64,000 nt of DNA from Chryseobacterium indologenes (lineage in GTDB: Bacteria; Bacteroidota; Bacteroidia; Flavobacteriales; Weeksellaceae), in NCBI RefSeq assembly GCF_018362995.1, contig NZ_CP074372.1, positions 4,340,001 through 4,404,000 on the forward strand, written 5' to 3'. The translations under genes were made by a program, and so were the position numbers. Shown here piece after piece: positions 2,588 to 25,362 of the stretch. A model generated the notes under the pieces. That model was not told where the DNA came from. It did not search any database and was given only the letters and a program-made list of their open reading frames with translations. Each line of letters starts with the position of its first letter. Positions within the stretch are counted from its first letter, which is position 1.

Positions 2588-4120
2588 ATGAAAAAAGCTC
2601 TTTTAATCCTTCTGGGAATCATTGTCATTCTGGCTGCTGTAGTATTGATTAAAACTTATACCTATCCGTTTAAGAAAAATAATACCGGAGCAGGCGAAGG
2701 ATGGAAACCGATAAAAAATGATTCTGCAGTCATGAGGCTGTCGGGAGGAATAAAGGTTCCAACCGTTTCTACAGGAAGTTTAGGTGAATTCAATTATGCA
2801 CCCTTTGATCAGTTCAAAACTTATTTAAAAACTTCTTATCCCTTAGTATATCAGAATACAGAAAACGTTGAAGTGAATCAGTATGGGTTGGTGTTCAGGC
2901 TTAAAGGAAGCAATCCTGCCCTGGAGCCCATTTTATTTCTTTCCCATATGGATGTTGTTCCACCGGGAGATGCTGATATCAAAAATAATGAAGAAAATAT
3001 ATTCCGTCTGGATGATAAACCGGCAGAACCTGTTGCAAAAGTAGCGGAAGACTGGGATTTTGCCCCTTTTTCAGGAGCTGTAGCGAATGGAAGGATCTAT
3101 GGAAGAGGAGCAATAGACATGAAAGGAATGCTGTTTTCCTTAATGGAATCCATGAATTCTATGATTAAAAATAAACAGATTCCACAACGTGATATTTATC
3201 TGGCGTTTGGTTTTGATGAAGAAGTTGGCGGGCAAAAAGGTGCTATTCAGATTGCAGATTATTTTAAGAAAAAAGGATTGAAGTTCGATGCCGTGTATGA
3301 CGAAGGCGGATTGATTATGAGAAAAGGAAATGTGGCAGGGATAGATACAGATGTTGCTGTTGTAGGATGTGCTGAAAAAGGATTTCTTTCTGCAAAAATT
3401 AAAGTGAAAGGACTCGGCGGGCATTCTTCTATGCCTCCAATGGAAAGCGCTATAGGAAAAGCGGCTGTTATTATGCAGCGTCTGGAAGATCATCAGATGA
3501 AACCTGTGATCACCCCGTTAATCAAAGAGTTTTTTAATAATATCGGAGGTGAAATGCCTTTTACAACAAGAATGGCGCTTGCCAATCAATGGCTTTTAAA
3601 ACCTGTTTTGATTTCACAACTTACTAAAAATAATACAACCAACGCATTGGTAAGAACAACGACAGCACTGACAATGATGAAAGGCAGTGATGGGACCAAT
3701 GTACTTTCCCCTGAAGTTGAATTTGTTGTTAATTTCAGATTACTTCCCGGAAATTCAGTGAAGGATGTAAGGGATCACATAGCTAAAGCAACTGAAGGTT
3801 TCGATGTTGAAGTAGAAGAAATTGACAATACAAGAGAAGCTTCTGCAATTTCCCCAACCAATACGAAAGCTTTTAAAATCATAGAAGCCGGAGTCAAGGA
3901 AATTCATCCGGGAGCAATTGTTACCCCATATCTTACTATGGCAGGAACAGATGCCGGAAAATATGAAATTGTGAGTAAAAATGTGTACAGATTCATGCCA
4001 ATCAAGATCAACAGCGCAGAACAGCAGAGCATACACAGTACCAATGAATATCTCAGTATAGAAAACTACCTGAAAATGATTCACTACTTTGAGTATGTGA
4101 TGAAGAATTATGATAAGTAG
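2588..4120 (+). CDS. M20 family zinc carboxypeptidase, membrane-anchored
   Basis: A metallopeptidase of the PM20D1/carboxypeptidase S branch of family M20, 510 residues. Residues 4-21 form one hydrophobic segment that should anchor it to the inner membrane with the enzyme outside. Zinc ligands and catalytic residues are visible: H120 and D122 in 'SHMDVVPPGD', D167 in 'GRGAIDMKG', E201-E202 in 'FDEEVGG', the 'YDEGG' segment near 227-231, and H483 near the C-terminus. The dimerisation domain sits between. It is monocistronic, divergent from azoR, with repeat-bearing intergenic DNA after it. Likely substrates are small peptides or N-acyl amino acids. Confidence 0.85.
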   Translation: MKKALLILLGIIVILAAVVLIKTYTYPFKKNNTGAGEGWKPIKNDSAVMRLSGGIKVPTVSTGSLGEFNYAPFDQFKTYLKTSYPLVYQNTENVEVNQYGLVFRLKGSNPALEPILFLSHMDVVPPGDADIKNNEENIFRLDDKPAEPVAKVAEDWDFAPFSGAVANGRIYGRGAIDMKGMLFSLMESMNSMIKNKQIPQRDIYLAFGFDEEVGGQKGAIQIADYFKKKGLKFDAVYDEGGLIMRKGNVAGIDTDVAVVGCAEKGFLSAKIKVKGLGGHSSMPPMESAIGKAAVIMQRLEDHQMKPVITPLIKEFFNNIGGEMPFTTRMALANQWLLKPVLISQLTKNNTTNALVRTTTALTMMKGSDGTNVLSPEVEFVVNFRLLPGNSVKDVRDHIAKATEGFDVEVEEIDNTREASAISPTNTKAFKIIEAGVKEIHPGAIVTPYLTMAGTDAGKYEIVSKNVYRFMPIKINSAEQQSIHSTNEYLSIENYLKMIHYFEYVMKNYDK

Positions 4121-4154
4121 TTCGGGGTACGGGATCTAGGGATAATGCATACTA

Positions 4155-4315
4155 TTAAACGCAGAGTTCGCGAAGTTTTCTATACTATCTTATTATTTTT
4201 TCGATCGCAAAGGCGTTTCACTCAGCAATAGGTTGAAATCTTAGCTTAATGAAATGCCTTTGCGAGCCCAATAAGCTTTATCTATTCATAAACCTTGCGA
4301 TCCTTAGCGTTAAAA
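4155..4315. repeat. Interspersed intergenic element, family A copy 1
   Basis: About 160 bp sharing an overall layout with the reverse complement of 40553-40698: a 'taaacgcagagt' start, an identical 19-mer (4203-4221, matching 40647-40665), a diverged middle and an 'ataaaccttgcgatc..agcgtt' end. Both copies lie in intergenic DNA. The function is unknown. Confidence 0.7.
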
Positions 4316-4413
4316 TCATATTCATTATTGACTTTGCGACGCAAAATTGATTCCTGACCAAAAAAATCTTTTACGAAAAATATATTACGTCAAGTTTTGT
4401 CGCATTACGGATA

Positions 4414-4421
4414 TAGCTTTG
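4414..4421 (+). promoter_or_regulatory. -7 box that argues for the start at 4443
   Basis: TAGCTTTG fits TAnnTTTG and ends 21 bases before the ATG at 4443. It lies inside the extended frame that begins at a TTG (4347), so transcription probably starts after that TTG. Confidence 0.5.
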
Positions 4422-4442
4422 TCATATCAAAATTACAGAGCT

Positions 4443-5138
4443 ATGGAATTGCCATTTTACTTAAACTTTAACGACTTTGAAAGTAATTATTACGACAACC
4501 TTGAAAAATGGTTTGAAGAATATCATAATACCAGCGAAACAGACTATCTGAATGCCCTTGCTGAACTTTACAGTCCATATGTCTATTATAACTTTACAGA
4601 TGACATGCTAAAGCCGGATGCATCCATTGAAGTGAAAGACTGCTTTTTTCCTTATCATGAAAAAATTGGGATCTCATTCTGTATTGATTGTGAAAACGGA
4701 ACTTCTCCATCCAATGGAATGAACCAGGTTTTTGAATTTAAAAATATTTCCATGATGGAGTATGCCCAGCATATTCTGGATAAGATCAATAAGTTTTGTT
4801 CAAAAAATCCAAATGCTTTGGATGGTACCAAAAATATTCAGGATTATCTTAATCACTATGCTATTATTACCTCTATGGAAGGAGTAGGATATTGTATCAG
4901 CTACAACCGCCATCAGAAAGCCATTCCTTTTTTGAAAGCCTATCTTCCCTACTATGGCCAGACGGTGAGTATGGCGTTATACAGAGACTTTCTTTTCTCT
5001 GTGGTGCAGATTGCCGAATTCATAGATCAGAAACTGAAGACAGTACATGCGTTTAAACAAACTATCTATGCCCGTTCAAAAGCTGAAGCCAAATTCAATG
5101 TGCAGTTGAGCCGCCAGTTTCTGACGTTATGCAACTAA
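4443..5138 (+). CDS. Conserved hypothetical protein, 231 aa
   Basis: A soluble acidic protein with no signal peptide or membrane helix and no family I can name. The reading frame extends upstream to a TTG at 4347, but the ATG at 4443 is preferred because a -7 box lies at 4414-4421 and the upstream residues look non-coding. The C-terminal part is helical, with a run of Lys and Arg near 'QTIYARSKAEAKF'. It is monocistronic, ends just before a strong hairpin terminator, and faces the DUF2490 gene. Confidence 0.7.
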   Translation: MELPFYLNFNDFESNYYDNLEKWFEEYHNTSETDYLNALAELYSPYVYYNFTDDMLKPDASIEVKDCFFPYHEKIGISFCIDCENGTSPSNGMNQVFEFKNISMMEYAQHILDKINKFCSKNPNALDGTKNIQDYLNHYAIITSMEGVGYCISYNRHQKAIPFLKAYLPYYGQTVSMALYRDFLFSVVQIAEFIDQKLKTVHAFKQTIYARSKAEAKFNVQLSRQFLTLCN

Positions 5139-19636: not shown

Positions 19637-20107
19637 ATGAACTATCAACTGGACGAAATAGACAAGAAAATTCTTGATTTCTTAGTAGAAAACACAAGAA
19701 TGCCTTTTACTGAAATTGCAAAGCAGATGGATGTTTCTGCTGGAACAATTCACGTAAGAGTGAAAAAGATGGAAGATGCAGGTATTATTTTGGGATCATC
19801 TCTTAATATCGATTATGGTAAGCTGGACTATCACTTTACAGCTTTCATAGGGATCCTTTTGACAAAATCAAACCGTACTCAGGAAGTATTGAAAGAATTG
19901 TCAACATTACCTAACGTCATTGAAGCTAGCGTTATTTCCGGAAAATATAATATTTTCTGCAAAGTAAGAGCTAAGAATACCGATGATGCTAAAAGAATTA
20001 TTTATCAGATAGATGACATTCAGGACGTAATGAGAACTGAAAGTATGATCTCTATGGAAGAATTCTTAAGTGACAAAAATAGATTGATCAACGCTATCTC
20101 TATATAA
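19637..20107 (+). CDS. Lrp/AsnC family transcriptional regulator
   Basis: A 156-residue feast/famine regulator. The N-terminal winged helix-turn-helix is plain ('LDEIDKKILDFLVENTRMPF', residues 5-24 with the family's D-x-D-x-x-I-L start; 'SAGTIHVRVKKMEDAGII' the recognition helix). The C-terminal RAM domain (about 65-150) binds small effectors such as amino acids and makes the dimer or octamer. It has its own -7 box and ends at a hairpin terminator. Targets cannot be deduced from the neighbours. Confidence 0.92.
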   Translation: MNYQLDEIDKKILDFLVENTRMPFTEIAKQMDVSAGTIHVRVKKMEDAGIILGSSLNIDYGKLDYHFTAFIGILLTKSNRTQEVLKELSTLPNVIEASVISGKYNIFCKVRAKNTDDAKRIIYQIDDIQDVMRTESMISMEEFLSDKNRLINAISI

Positions 20108-20637: not shown

Positions 20638-21708
20638 CTATCTGAGTTCTAATGAATGAAAAATTTTTTGCTTCAAAGGATTTTTTGTCCAGTCTTCCCA
20701 GACTCCTGAATAGGGGTTATAACCACATTTTAGAGGTTTTGATATATTCAGGCCTTCTTTGCTTTTTTCTGTATTTTCGGTGTACGCCCTGCAGTCTGTG
20801 CAGGTATAACGGAACTCACAGTCTTTGCAGACTTCTATATGGTCTTTAGTCAGATCCCAATATTTTTTGAAATCAGGTTGGGCTATTGCTTCTTCAAGGC
20901 TGTGATTATGGATGTTTCCAAAGCTTTCAGCCATCAGCGGGCAGTTTTTAATAGCACCGTTTCGGTCAATACCAATCTTTTTATACAGGCAGGAATTATG
21001 GTTCATTGCTTCCAGTACTTTTGGAAGGTTGGTGTTGAAATATTTCAGTTCCACTTTTCCACAGGCAGATATTTTCAGGTCATCTTTCAGAAAATTCAGC
21101 GAGAATCTGTATTCATCTTTAGCTTTGAAAGGAGGGTTCGAACAATTGTAGAAAATGAGACTGTATATTCTGACTGTATTTTTGTGAAGAGCCTGTATAA
21201 AAGATAGATTGGTTTCCTGATGAAATGGTGAAAAGACTTCTATTCCTGACAGCACTGAGGTTTTAAAAGTATCATCAATTTCTATGAATTCATTGATTGT
21301 TAACGATTTTAAACTATAAATAACCAAATGTTTAATGCCAAGGTTTTCTACAGAAGGTTTTATTTTTTTCAGCAGCTCTATATCTTCCATTTCGATAAAG
21401 AGATTTGTTATAGCACTGGGCTCATGATATTCATAAGAAAGAGGAGGGAAGTTCCTGTCCCAATCGTTTTCAGTAACAAATCCATATTCTTTTTCGAGCA
21501 GCAGATTAATATATTCCTGAAGAATTGGCCTGGATTCTTCATCATAATCTTGCAGGATGTCTTCAAGAGAATGTTTTTTCATTTCTTCTATCATCTCGTA
21601 CAATTCCAGGGGATATAGTTCAGATACATTTCTCTGTATATCCGAAATAAGAATCCTGGTGGCTCCTTTGGTGATCAGAATTGTTGAAAAAAGATTAAAG
21701 TATTTCAT
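20638..21708 (-). CDS. gwsS: Grasp-with-spasm system SPASM-domain peptide maturase
   Basis: A 356-residue partner of the ATP-grasp enzyme in the Bacteroidota grasp-with-spasm RiPP systems. It has no radical SAM CxxxCxxC. The C-terminal SPASM-type cysteines are C216, C240, C256, C294, C297, C303, C306 and C328 ('CKDCEFRYTCTDCRAY' at 294-309), expected to bind iron-sulfur clusters. The N-terminal half (1-200) resembles the radical SAM scaffold without the cluster site. It is the last gene of the locus; its ATG overlaps the stop of the 60-aa ORF (ATGA, 21705-21708). A terminator follows at 20580-20612. Confidence 0.88.
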   Translation of the reverse strand: MKYFNLFSTILITKGATRILISDIQRNVSELYPLELYEMIEEMKKHSLEDILQDYDEESRPILQEYINLLLEKEYGFVTENDWDRNFPPLSYEYHEPSAITNLFIEMEDIELLKKIKPSVENLGIKHLVIYSLKSLTINEFIEIDDTFKTSVLSGIEVFSPFHQETNLSFIQALHKNTVRIYSLIFYNCSNPPFKAKDEYRFSLNFLKDDLKISACGKVELKYFNTNLPKVLEAMNHNSCLYKKIGIDRNGAIKNCPLMAESFGNIHNHSLEEAIAQPDFKKYWDLTKDHIEVCKDCEFRYTCTDCRAYTENTEKSKEGLNISKPLKCGYNPYSGVWEDWTKNPLKQKIFHSLELR

Positions 21709-21887
21709 AGTAATCTTGTAAGAAATTTATAAGGATTAAGTTTAGCATAAGAATCCGTAAAATATTTTTCACAAGGAATAGTAATGCTAAAATGCTTTTT
21801 CTCACGACTTTTACTTTTTACAACGTCAATATATTTAAATGTGAGGGGAAGTGTATGTTTTTCTTTGCTAGTAAAATCTCTTTTCAT
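21705..21887 (-). CDS. 60-aa basic protein within the grasp-with-spasm operon
   Basis: A short ORF overlapping the ATP-grasp stop (ATGA, 21884-21887) and the gwsS start (ATGA, 21705-21708). Two such overlaps make translation very likely. The product is strongly basic (about a quarter Lys/Arg), has one Cys ('ITIPCEKYF') and no GG motif, so it does not look like a second precursor of the same type. I do not recognise a family. Possible roles are a leader-binding adaptor or a degenerate precursor. Confidence 0.68.
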   Translation of the reverse strand: MKRDFTSKEKHTLPLTFKYIDVVKSKSREKKHFSITIPCEKYFTDSYAKLNPYKFLTRLL

Positions 21888-22785
21888 AAATAATCAGCTA
21901 TTTCTTTTTCCAACAAATAATTACATATTACTGATATTCCCAAAAACTGGCCTACAGGATTGACTTCTAAAAAATAGTATTTACCATCATTTTTAATGAA
22001 ATCAAGAGAACCGGAATTAAGATCTAATGACTGCATTAGCCGATGTATTTTTTGTTCAATATTTTTCGGAAGATTATAAGGAACCTTTCTATTTGGTTTT
22101 TCATCATTGTATTTCCTAAAGTCAATTTTAGTCTGGTTATCATTTTGCGAAAAGATGGCTGTAGACCAGACTTTACCATTTAAATAAAAGCTTCTGATCT
22201 CGAAGTCTTTTTCGATTTTTTCCTGAAAGAAGGTGATAAAAAAATTTTCGTCTTCATTTTCTTGAACAATTGTTGTATACATCATACCGCTTGAATCTTT
22301 GAGTATGTTTTCCATTCGCGGATTTCCACCATGGTTTTGATGATTGTTTTGTTTAAAGTAACATCATCTGTGGTGTCAGCCAGGAAGTAAGACGGAACAT
22401 CTAATCCAACCTTTTGAGCCGCTTCAAGCACGAGAAGTTTATTAATATCACTATTGCTTTGTTTATTAATATGTTTTTTTGACTCTAAAACCTTTATTAT
22501 ATAATCTTCCAGCCAGTGTTGATATTCATTCATATTAAGATTAACTGCTTCATTTTTATAATGCAGGCGGTTAAAATTCAATCCACCTCTTCTATACCAT
22601 ACACTGGTAATTTCATCAATAAAAAAACAATTTCTCGGGCTTTCTAGATAAATCCGTTTTTCTTGTATTTTAATATCAAAAACTTCATCTTCATGTACCC
22701 GGATAAAGCTTTTATCCGATTTTAGTAGCCATTTAATGACTTCAGTAGTGGTTATTTCGTTATTTTGAGAAATGATCAGTATCAA
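21884..22785 (-). pseudogene. gwsG: Grasp-with-spasm ATP-grasp peptide maturase, split by a frameshift
   Basis: Two overlapping frames, 22282-22785 (167 aa, N-terminal half) and 21884-22315 (143 aa, C-terminal half), together make one ATP-grasp ligase of about 310 residues, the usual size. The N-part starts 'MILIISQNNEITTTEVIKWL' (20 residues, typical) and ends in a spurious tail after 'TMVEIREW'. The C-part carries the ATP-grasp core with 'FEIRSFYLNGKVW', 'LDLNSGSLDF' and the metal ligands in 'YYFLEVNPVGQF'. Restoring one base near 22306-22313 joins them as ...VEIRE-MENILKD... The family makes ester or amide links between side chains of the precursor. Either a genuine mutation, a programmed shift or a sequencing error is possible. 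Confidence 0.82.
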
Positions 22786-23687
22786 TTTTTCTTTTTTATT
22801 TTTTTGAAGAAATCTTTTGTAATCAACTGAGCATGCTTTAAGCTTGGCAACCCTATGCTTTTGCGATTACGATTGACGGTTGTGGAATCTTTTATATTTT
22901 CATATCCTTGATAAACGCCATAAGTATAAGGTACTTTATGGTGTAAATTATTTCTATCTATCATAGCTGCGTAGTCTCGTGGGGGACATTCACCTGATTT
23001 TACATACTCTAATACTTTTATTTTCAAATATGGGTAATACTCTTCATAATCGGCCATATGAAGTAACATGGGGCCGGAGGGCATAAAAAAATCACCATTC
23101 CATAAACCTATTTTTTGCAGGTCTGGAAATCCATAGTTCTCAAACATCCACTTCAGAAGTTCAGCATTCTTTTTATCATTTTTATTGATATCTGCATAAT
23201 TTGAATCAATACGACTGTCTTGATCACGTTTAAACGCGACTGTAAAAGAATCTACAAGTTTTTGATTAAGTCTTTTTTTCCATTCTTCAACTTTCAATTC
23301 CATTTCTTGTCTGTCAATACCATATTTTTGATAGAGTTGTATAAAGCTAGTGTCTTGCTTTTTATATTTCCAATTAGGTGCAACTAACGGAATAAGCTTG
23401 TAAAGACTTTTCTTCCCTCCAAAATTTTTGTGATGTTGATCTGCAAGCTTTATGTAATTTTCATATTCTTCTCTCCGTTCCTGGTTTTTGGGAGGATATT
23501 GTCTGAATATTTTTTTGTACTGCTTTATCGTAAATATTGTATCCTTTTGAAAACGAAATATACTGTCGATTTCATTGATCTTATTATAATAGGTTATATA
23601 GTTTAAATTTCTGCTCTTACAAGCTGTAAGAGTAAAAATTATAGCTATTAAAGCAAATGAAGTATAGTTCCAAATATCTTTTTTCAT
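22782..23687 (-). CDS. DUF6624-like lipoprotein in the grasp-with-spasm operon
   Basis: A 301-residue lipoprotein: signal peptide with lipobox 'LTAC' and lipidated C23. The C-terminal half (about 180-290) shows the pattern I associate with DUF6624: 'YGFPDLQKIGLWNG', 'MLLHMADYEEYYP', 'DYAAMIDRNNL', 'YGVYQG' (in place of YGTQ). It lies between the precursor and gwsG, and its stop overlaps the gwsG start by 4 bases. A surface or periplasmic role in export, processing or self-protection is inference from position only. Confidence 0.75.
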   Translation of the reverse strand: MKKDIWNYTSFALIAIIFTLTACKSRNLNYITYYNKINEIDSIFRFQKDTIFTIKQYKKIFRQYPPKNQERREEYENYIKLADQHHKNFGGKKSLYKLIPLVAPNWKYKKQDTSFIQLYQKYGIDRQEMELKVEEWKKRLNQKLVDSFTVAFKRDQDSRIDSNYADINKNDKKNAELLKWMFENYGFPDLQKIGLWNGDFFMPSGPMLLHMADYEEYYPYLKIKVLEYVKSGECPPRDYAAMIDRNNLHHKVPYTYGVYQGYENIKDSTTVNRNRKSIGLPSLKHAQLITKDFFKKIKKKN

Positions 23688-23719
23688 AAATTCTCTAACG
23701 AATATGATCTGATAGAAAG

Positions 23720-23743
23720 AGATAGAGGGATGATCCTCTATCT
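23720..23743 (-). promoter_or_regulatory. Hairpin between precursor and maturation genes (possible attenuator)
   Basis: A perfect 9-bp stem (agatagagg / cctctatct) with a 6-base loop in the 65-base gap between the precursor stop (23753) and the lipoprotein start (23687). The run of T after it is interrupted, so partial termination would let the precursor be made in excess of the enzymes. Confidence 0.5.
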
Positions 23744-23752
23744 GTATTAATA

Positions 23753-23953
23753 TTAATTAAGGCTGGTATCTATTTTCAAAGTGCTGATATGAACACCGTC
23801 TTTCCATGTCTCTTTATCATAACATGTAGAACCACAATCTGTTTCTACATATTTATAACCATCTCCACCTAAAATAGATTTTAAATCTTTTCGTTGTAAT
23901 TTTTTGTTTTCTGTAGAAGAGAAGCCACCCTTCATTCCATTTAATTTTTTCAT
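23753..23953 (-). CDS. Grasp-with-spasm RiPP precursor peptide
   Basis: A 66-residue peptide starting at the ATG at 23953; the frame runs back to 24097, but the added residues look non-coding. The leader 'MKKLNGMKGGFSSTENKK' leads to 'LQRKDLKSILGG' (19-30), a classic double-glycine leader. The core (31-66) is rich in possible donors and acceptors (Asp, Glu, Thr, Ser, Lys) and has two Cys, C40 and C44 in 'DCGSTCY'. It is the first gene of the locus, followed by a hairpin. No C39 peptidase/ABC transporter lies nearby, so leader removal and export must use distant genes. Confidence 0.82.
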   Translation of the reverse strand: MKKLNGMKGGFSSTENKKLQRKDLKSILGGDGYKYVETDCGSTCYDKETWKDGVHISTLKIDTSLN

Positions 23954-24828: not shown

Positions 24829-25362
24829 ATGGATTTTGAAATTTTGAAACAGCAGATAGAAGATGCTGCTAAGAAAGCTTTTTTAGAAGTGTATGAAAAG
24901 CATGGAACAGAAGGGATTTACAGCTTTGCATTGTACAGTGATGAAGGTGCAATGACAGTATGCCCTGCAGCCAATACCATGAAAATACTGGAAACGGCAG
25001 ATGAGGAGGATGCTCTTTATTATAAATATGAACCGGCAGAATGGACCTATGAAATGGAAGGAGCCGATGAAGAGTTCAATGAAATATGTACTCAGCTGAG
25101 AGCAGAACTGGATCAACATGAAGAAGATGATCAATGGTTTGAAGGTTTTCAGGCAAAATTGTATTCGGCTTGCATCGAAGTGCTGGAAAAACTTAAAAAT
25201 GAGAACTTTTTCACAAAGATTACAGGCAAAGATATTTTCTTGATTTTCACGGTCTCAGATTATGAGTTTGAGATGGAAGAGCTAAAAAATCTTGTTGTAA
25301 GACTTAATGATAATGAATACAGAAGTGAATATCTGAACTGGATGGCTACCTGGGACAATTAA
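24829..25362 (+). CDS. DUF4303 family protein
   Basis: A 177-residue acidic cytoplasmic protein starting 'MDFEILKQQIEDAAKKAF'. The 'IYSFALYSDEGAMTVCPAANT' segment (about residues 30-50, key Y, D, N positions) and 'ITGKDIFLIFTVSD' near 130-145 match my recollection of DUF4303. The function is unknown; members often occur near contact-toxin immunity genes as SUKH-like stand-alone proteins, which cannot be tested here. It is monocistronic. Confidence 0.7.
   Translation: MDFEILKQQIEDAAKKAFLEVYEKHGTEGIYSFALYSDEGAMTVCPAANTMKILETADEEDALYYKYEPAEWTYEMEGADEEFNEICTQLRAELDQHEEDDQWFEGFQAKLYSACIEVLEKLKNENFFTKITGKDIFLIFTVSDYEFEMEELKNLVVRLNDNEYRSEYLNWMATWDN

Follow-up and report, generated by a model that had tools for sequence, protein, structure and literature searches.

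In this study, we analyzed a stretch of 64,000 nucleotides from Chryseobacterium indologenes (contig NZ_CP074372.1, positions 4,340,001 to 4,404,000; hereafter the window) and, within it, a grasp-with-spasm cassette of five genes, all on the minus strand, for a precursor peptide (GwsA), a lipoprotein, an ATP-grasp ligase region (GwsG), a 60-residue protein of the LPL family and a SPASM protein (GwsS). We give slightly better than even chances to the reading that such cassettes make a side-chain cross-linked peptide exported after a GG leader, with LPL working alongside GwsG and the lipoprotein conferring immunity, the chemistry and the immunity both being predictions. What is new here is the assignment of LPL to GwsG, the predicted immunity role of the lipoprotein, a GwsS lacking the radical-SAM motif, the exchange of genes as a block with lipoproteins left behind, and the GLPGLI protein as an alternative to the lipoprotein. 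In the open-licence literature, we found no work assigning LPL to GwsG or proposing immunity for these lipoproteins, and no characterised product of a grasp-with-spasm system.

A search of the genus with TIGR04193 matched at least 116 of 148 genomes, and 60 related loci were fetched by TIGR04193 rank among the matches listed; the frequencies given here describe that part of the family. Fifty-four of these loci, which have the same parts or variants of them, form with the window a set of 55, whereas six (L089–L094) were left out of the counts because the profiles found no precursor, lipoprotein or LPL in them. Grasp-with-spasm loci (TIGR04192, TIGR04193, TIGR04139) are the same as those of branch 5 in the relevant sections of Makarova 2022 (PMC8939145), with which the window shares the precursor, the ATP-grasp protein, an LPL just upstream of the SPASM gene and a lipoprotein (in branch 5 one of cluster 23, to which the lipobox-bearing window protein may belong). 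The first-pass annotation of the window had regarded the lipoprotein and the 60-residue protein as two extra components of an unusual subtype. The check that it proposed, a search for homologues of both at matching positions in relatives, found LPL in 55/55 loci and the lipoprotein in 52/55, and both are standard parts since those sections of Makarova 2022 already describe them in such loci. The same parts at the same positions across relatives therefore represent the standard make-up. In the window, GwsS and the precursor score above their family cut-offs (Table 1), while GwsG, unlike that of other grasp-with-spasm members, is split and does not occur in a single frame.

The window's 60-residue protein carries HTLPLTF and lies directly upstream of gwsS with a 4-base overlap, and thus fits the LPL family, which in branch 5 (Bacteroidetes) is described as always standing just upstream of the SPASM gene (PMC8939145); NCBIfam and Pfam profile searches of the window product recognised no domain in it. 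The 55 loci together hold 58 copies of GwsG, 58 of LPL and 55 of GwsS. An LPL follows GwsG in all 58 copies and a GwsG without LPL was never seen (0/58), while LPL adjoins gwsS in 42 copies and does not in the other 16. Distance tests on 52 loci, the three without a DUF6624-type lipoprotein having been dropped, gave a partial Mantel r of 0.66 between LPL and GwsG with GwsS held, and 0.18 between LPL and GwsS with GwsG held (p 0.001). The corresponding values were 0.65 and 0.20 after removal of one near-duplicate (51 loci), and 0.60 and 0.24 when only the 38 loci with LPL directly next to GwsG as well as gwsS were used. From these comparisons, LPL is likely to be a partner dedicated to GwsG, as opposed to a helper of the SPASM protein in the manner of PqqD. 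Such a PqqD-like chaperone of GwsS is the main suggestion in the part of Makarova 2022 that deals with LPL, where LPL is likened to PqqD and an action on the ATP-grasp protein is not ruled out (PMC8939145), and both the 42 copies directly upstream of gwsS and the small yet significant correlation that remains with GwsS speak for it and against our assignment. Nevertheless, we consider it improbable, as LPL stays with GwsG in 58/58 copies, moves along with it in the block changes described below, and accompanies three extra GwsG copies that have no GwsS of their own. No fusion of LPL to GwsG or GwsS occurs among the matches listed, in which frames with a strong match reach at most 91 residues and those with a full-length match at most 365. 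An association of leader indels with LPL indels (16/22 versus 3/36) is not relied on, the crude pattern behind it having mislabelled some leaders.

Strong LPL matches come from two genera among 395 genomes, among the matches listed, and one further LPL of this type is found in another family (L131). Sixty-two of 63 GwsG–GwsS pairs in distant loci (4 of these 65 loci have no such pair) are separated by an open reading frame (ORF) of 40–79 residues, the sequences of which are very different. These small proteins often end like FYKPISK, near the KPLTRLL-type end of Chryseobacterium LPLs, and 13 of their 28 blastp clusters have [KR][PNQKA][ILV][SHT] within the final 22 residues, against a mean of 1.2 and a maximum of 9 in 2000 shuffles; the other 15 clusters are without it. 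This suggests that the distant small proteins and LPL are one family, a lead for common origin and not proof of it.

Potentially, the C-terminal tail of LPL (K-P-[IL]-[ST]-[RK]-hydrophobic) acts as a leader in trans, its likeness to the microviridin motif PFFARFL being one seen by eye only. GwsG is homologous to the microviridin-type synthetases (MdnC, PDB 5ig9; CdnC, 7mgv), matching 5ig9 at 1.3e-24 when intact relatives are used and at 5.6e-15 with the window's C piece alone. Unlike the microviridin type, the window precursor has no proline-containing PFFARFL-like motif in its leader, and precursors of branch 5 are likewise reported, in the sections that describe them, without the usual leader motif (PMC8939145). 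A further difference is that the segment with the leader contacts of MdnC is five residues shorter, at 15 instead of 20, in 50/58 cassette GwsGs (20 in three, 21 in two, three unmatched). Since the leader-contact pattern is unmatched in 52/68 distant GwsGs, our statement on the short segment is confined to the Chryseobacterium cassettes.

The cassette occupies a common chromosomal site, marked by the flank genes at 19637 and 20177, in 41/54 related loci. Between the window and locus L045, DNA identity is 95–97% in both flanks and gwsS and falls to 67–70% in the lipoprotein and GwsG (values of whole alignment pieces), the upstream high-identity stretch stopping about 28% into the precursor gene. 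Likewise, among 52 locus pairs with gwsS at least 85% identical, the C part of GwsG reaches 85% in 18 only. By comparison of the loci, the precursor, lipoprotein, GwsG and LPL are thus shown to change as a block at one site beside a conserved gwsS. Stages of such a replacement seem to be represented by L048, L072 and L061, with cassettes in tandem or half lost, and by L041 and L084, where a GwsG stub lies behind an older lipoprotein. Between the two complete tandem cassettes of L048 lies a gene (3621-4508) for a 295-residue membrane protein with a C terminus that appears LuxR-like by eye.

The traces of earlier blocks were followed in remnant zones, defined as more than 300 bp between the last LPL and gwsS, from which LPL is absent by construction. 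Such a zone exists in 12/55 loci, 11 of which have a DUF6624-type lipoprotein in it, three a GLPGLI protein or its tail and two a GwsG stub; no precursor was found in any of the 12. The orphan lipoprotein is intact in 8 of the 11 loci. In a tree of 68 lipoproteins, the orphans are nested among cassette-borne relatives of several lineages, as in an orphan array, with support of 100/97 for L045 with the window type, 100/97 for L084 with L054 and 100/100 for four orphans with L072; placement of the L041 orphan is weaker (81/99). The ratio of nonsynonymous to synonymous substitution rates (dN/dS) was 0.05–0.30 in 15 orphan comparisons, in which the orphan label is looser and includes lipoproteins upstream of GwsG, and 0.07–0.23 in nine cassette comparisons, some dS values being saturated. 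Compared in this way, the orphan lipoproteins are shown to be mostly intact and under purifying selection. In addition, the lipoprotein profile matched 74/148 genomes of the genus, and 11 regions were fetched in which a lipoprotein lies away from the listed gwsS places. In six of them, an open lipoprotein is the sole part of the system found within the fetched 10.8–11 kb, and four are decayed clusters with GwsG, LPL and GwsS broken or not found, in which all five lipoproteins are open and the precursor is still present in three; the remaining region holds a different system that has a gwsS to itself. Three genomes have a solo DUF6624-type lipoprotein at an identical site (L280, L281, L282; 88–100% identical).

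The first-pass annotation had called the lipoprotein DUF6624-like, a designation that holds in profile–profile comparison (hhalign, 98.8% probability, E 6.9e-17, profile columns 142-290) although the Pfam score against DUF6624 (PF20329) stays below the cut-off (12.3 against 27 bits). It stands between precursor and GwsG in 52/55 loci, its place in the other three (L056, L076, L081) being taken by a GLPGLI protein (127–144 bits, cut-off 50); in L049, a single GLPGLI protein is alone in the remnant zone. Both the DUF6624-type and the GLPGLI proteins begin, by eye, with a signal-like stretch. Counting both lipoprotein slot and remnant zone, GLPGLI proteins occur in or beside the cassettes of L056, L076, L081, L049, L041 and L086. 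In the parts of Carter 2026 that bear on these families (PMC13097080), SPASM proteins are noted for graspetide group 14, and DUF6624 for groups 18, 20, 23 and 42.

A new module coming in while an old exported protein is kept is the pattern of type VI secretion system (T6SS) orphan immunity, and a self-immunity role is predicted for the lipoprotein on that ground. In the Vibrio cholerae arrays, as the corresponding part of Kirchberger 2017 describes them (PMC5361080), a new module replaces the attack gene and the old immunity-type gene stays by a conserved machinery gene; unlike those arrays, the module here is predicted to make a modified peptide and its immunity is a matter of inference. The retained lipoprotein would then be immunity to the old peptide. 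Our analysis makes self-immunity reasonably probable, and it fits the retention of the lipoprotein after loss of the biosynthetic genes better than does the lipoprotein-assisted or surface-acting product supposed at first, which is disfavoured by the lipoprotein so often outliving the peptide-making genes. Several points weigh against immunity, however. Characterised graspetides are protease inhibitors according to the relevant passages of PMC8939145, and are not known toxins. Only broken orphan lipoproteins are present in three of the 11 remnant-zone loci (L037, L041, L086), and displacement beside gwsS does not account for four loci (L058, L066, L070, L086) in which additional lipoproteins lie upstream of GwsG. 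Four orphans are 91–96% identical and of shared descent, so that there were fewer events than loci, and the window genome has three more DUF6624 proteins apart from such loci. Finally, 81 lipoprotein sequences have many invariant positions in common (His210, Tyr239, Tyr256 and Arg275 among them), which would fit an enzyme too.

The alternative that these invariant positions raise is that the lipoprotein acts outside the cell as an enzyme of peptide maturation, either a leader protease or a tailoring enzyme, its extra copies being spare duplicates. Enzymatic activity was predicted from the conserved His and Arg in Makarova 2022, in its treatment of this family (PMC8939145), and the sections of Carter 2026 on DUF6624 raise the possibility that it is a class of biosynthetic enzymes still to be discovered (PMC13097080); purifying selection acting on orphans much as on cassette copies would suit this role as well. 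Against an enzyme speak, however, the 6/11 regions where an intact lipoprotein is found with no other part, and the 4/4 decayed clusters that kept theirs. In addition, the orphans stem from several cassette lineages, and the unrelated GLPGLI family occupies the same slot. Therefore, we regard the maturation enzyme as rather unlikely and retain self-immunity as the preferred role.

The SPASM protein that stays in place during the exchanges is itself unusual in that the radical-SAM motif CxxxCxxC is absent from all 119 GwsS copies, including that of the window, which makes ordinary radical SAM chemistry by GwsS unlikely. The window GwsS exceeds the SPASM cut-off (PF13186, 27.2 against 21.5 bits), and its eight SPASM cysteines (residues 216, 240, 256, 294, 297, 303, 306 and 328) are shared by at least 61 of the 62 copies aligned. 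Our guess is that GwsS may bind the precursor and act as a non-radical iron-sulfur scaffold; 19/64 distant GwsS copies missing the pattern CxxCx4-6CxxC, and an RRE domain that was not confirmed, count against this role. Among the loci left out of the counts, L089 encodes at 1832-2842 a GwsS-like protein (~25% identity) from which most SPASM cysteines are gone and which adjoins another GwsG.

Although the first-pass annotation gave the order of the five components correctly, it overlooked that the ATP-grasp region of the window is two ORFs in different frames. Neither GwsG piece reaches the TIGR04192 cut-off of 230 bits (Table 1), and no match in the window genome is above it. Both halves are in a single frame in 8/8 relatives with DNA aligned across the break, and the window copy is thus interrupted or misassembled. 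With its ligase gene broken, the cassette is a damaged member of the grasp-with-spasm family and not a member of another one. In this assembly, GwsG is nowhere encoded at full length; the strain therefore probably leaves its peptide without cross-links, although the lipoprotein is intact. If the break is instead an assembly error, the cassette would be intact and active, as the near end-to-end coverage of the family match by the two pieces together and the open state of the remaining cassette genes would allow. The genome is one 5.0-Mb contig of 99.99% completeness, which speaks against such an error while being uninformative on single bases, and we view the error as a distinct possibility that falls short of an even chance. 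In some strains decay also hits parts besides GwsG, as an in-frame TAG stop in gwsS indicates (G081:C1:976582-977595; L034, L062). Elsewhere in the window genome, an adjacent ATP-grasp pair (G000:C1:2048107-2050009; L003, L004) scores 123.9 and 122.1 bits with TIGR04192, below the cut-off, and probably marks a second locus for graspetides, different in type.

The precursor features first read from the window, 66 residues with GG and with CGSTC in an acidic/Thr/Ser core, are supported by the sequence and by TIGR04139. The leader comprises residues 1-30, with GG at 29-30, and the predicted core residues 31-66, with Cys40 and Cys44. TIGR04139 is named for CxxCx5CxxC, but the window core has a single CxxxC pair, and the precursors of several relatives carry just one cysteine or lack cysteine altogether. 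That no exporter lies nearby, as noted in the first pass, likewise holds for the window genome: none is in the stretch read, and the two C39 peptidase matches of the genome are both elsewhere. The C39-ABC protein at the first of them shares 99% identity over 629 residues with the one in L284:1-6121 (G002). There, the C39-ABC transporter gene, a VKOR/thioredoxin gene and an HlyD-like gene directly adjoin a group made up of precursor, lipoprotein and GwsG stub. The VKOR/thioredoxin protein of L284 is 94% identical to its window-genome counterpart, and the close relatives of its VKOR and C39 proteins in the window genome are located in L095. Because the C39-ABC protein matches a cassette-adjoining copy with a neighbouring VKOR/thioredoxin gene, the distant C39 transporter is likely to be the exporter of the precursor peptide, and the CGSTC cysteines are likely to form a disulfide and not a thioether.

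The coordinates of the cassette and its flanks are given in Table 1. From the lipoprotein gene onward, each gene overlaps the next by four bases, as first observed, at 22782-22785 (lipoprotein/GwsG), 21884-21887 (GwsG/LPL) and 21705-21708 (LPL/gwsS).

Table 1. Features of the grasp-with-spasm cassette and its flanks (positions are those of the window)
Feature	Position	Strand	Evidence
GwsA precursor, 66 aa	23753..23953	-	TIGR04139, 83 bits (cut-off 40); homologues in related loci
DUF6624-like lipoprotein, 301 aa, lipobox LTAC, Cys23	22782..23687	-	hhalign with DUF6624; slot kept in 52/55 loci
GwsG N part, 167-aa ORF, family match to ~residue 154	22282..22785	-	TIGR04192 1-169, 131.8 bits
GwsG C part, 143 aa, other frame	21884..22315	-	TIGR04192 174-318, 225.3 bits; PDB 5ig9, 7m4s
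GwsG frame break, one-base frameshift	22306..22324	-	ends of the two TIGR04192 matches; 8/8 aligned relatives in one frame
LPL-family protein, 60 aa, HTLPLTF near N terminus, KFLTRLL at C terminus	21705..21887	-	alignment; LPL family in PMC8939145
GwsS SPASM protein, 356 aa, without CxxxCxxC	20638..21708	-	TIGR04193, 460.7 bits (cut-off 175)
Two site-marking flank genes, 156 aa (Lrp/AsnC-like by eye) and 125 aa	19637..20554	+	adjoin gwsS in 41/54 related loci
DUF4303 protein, upstream flank	24829..25362	+	PF14136, 97 bits; also upstream of the cassette in some relatives

In the mechanism that we propose, GwsG, aided by LPL, would join Ser, Thr or Lys of the core to its Asp or Glu through ester or amide bonds, while GwsS would hold the precursor as a non-radical iron-sulfur scaffold. 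The distant C39 transporter would then cut after GG and export the peptide, the paired cysteines of which would become a disulfide rather than a thioether. A precedent for the pairing is rosaritide, where, in the account of MirB and MirC in Carter 2026 (PMC13097080), a graspetide synthetase needs a separate protein; for GwsG and LPL this need is predicted only, and unlike LPL, with no recognised domain, MirC is a predicted PpiC-type isomerase. Over time, a new block would replace the old one at the site beside the gwsS that stays, and older lipoproteins would remain behind. Possibly, though we hold this wider picture only tentatively and as unlikely in its entirety, the system is a peptide weapon for kin discrimination in the form of a swappable cassette. 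A ligase, its trans-leader LPL, the peptide and an immunity lipoprotein would then be exchanged together and plug into a SPASM protein that persists as a non-radical scaffold, while former immunity genes would accumulate beside it. The pairing of LPL with GwsG, the motif-less GwsS and the surviving lipoproteins make an unsolved pathway directly testable. If the immunity role is true, the orphan lipoproteins would be a record of peptides encountered in the past, as well as a handle for finding active ones.

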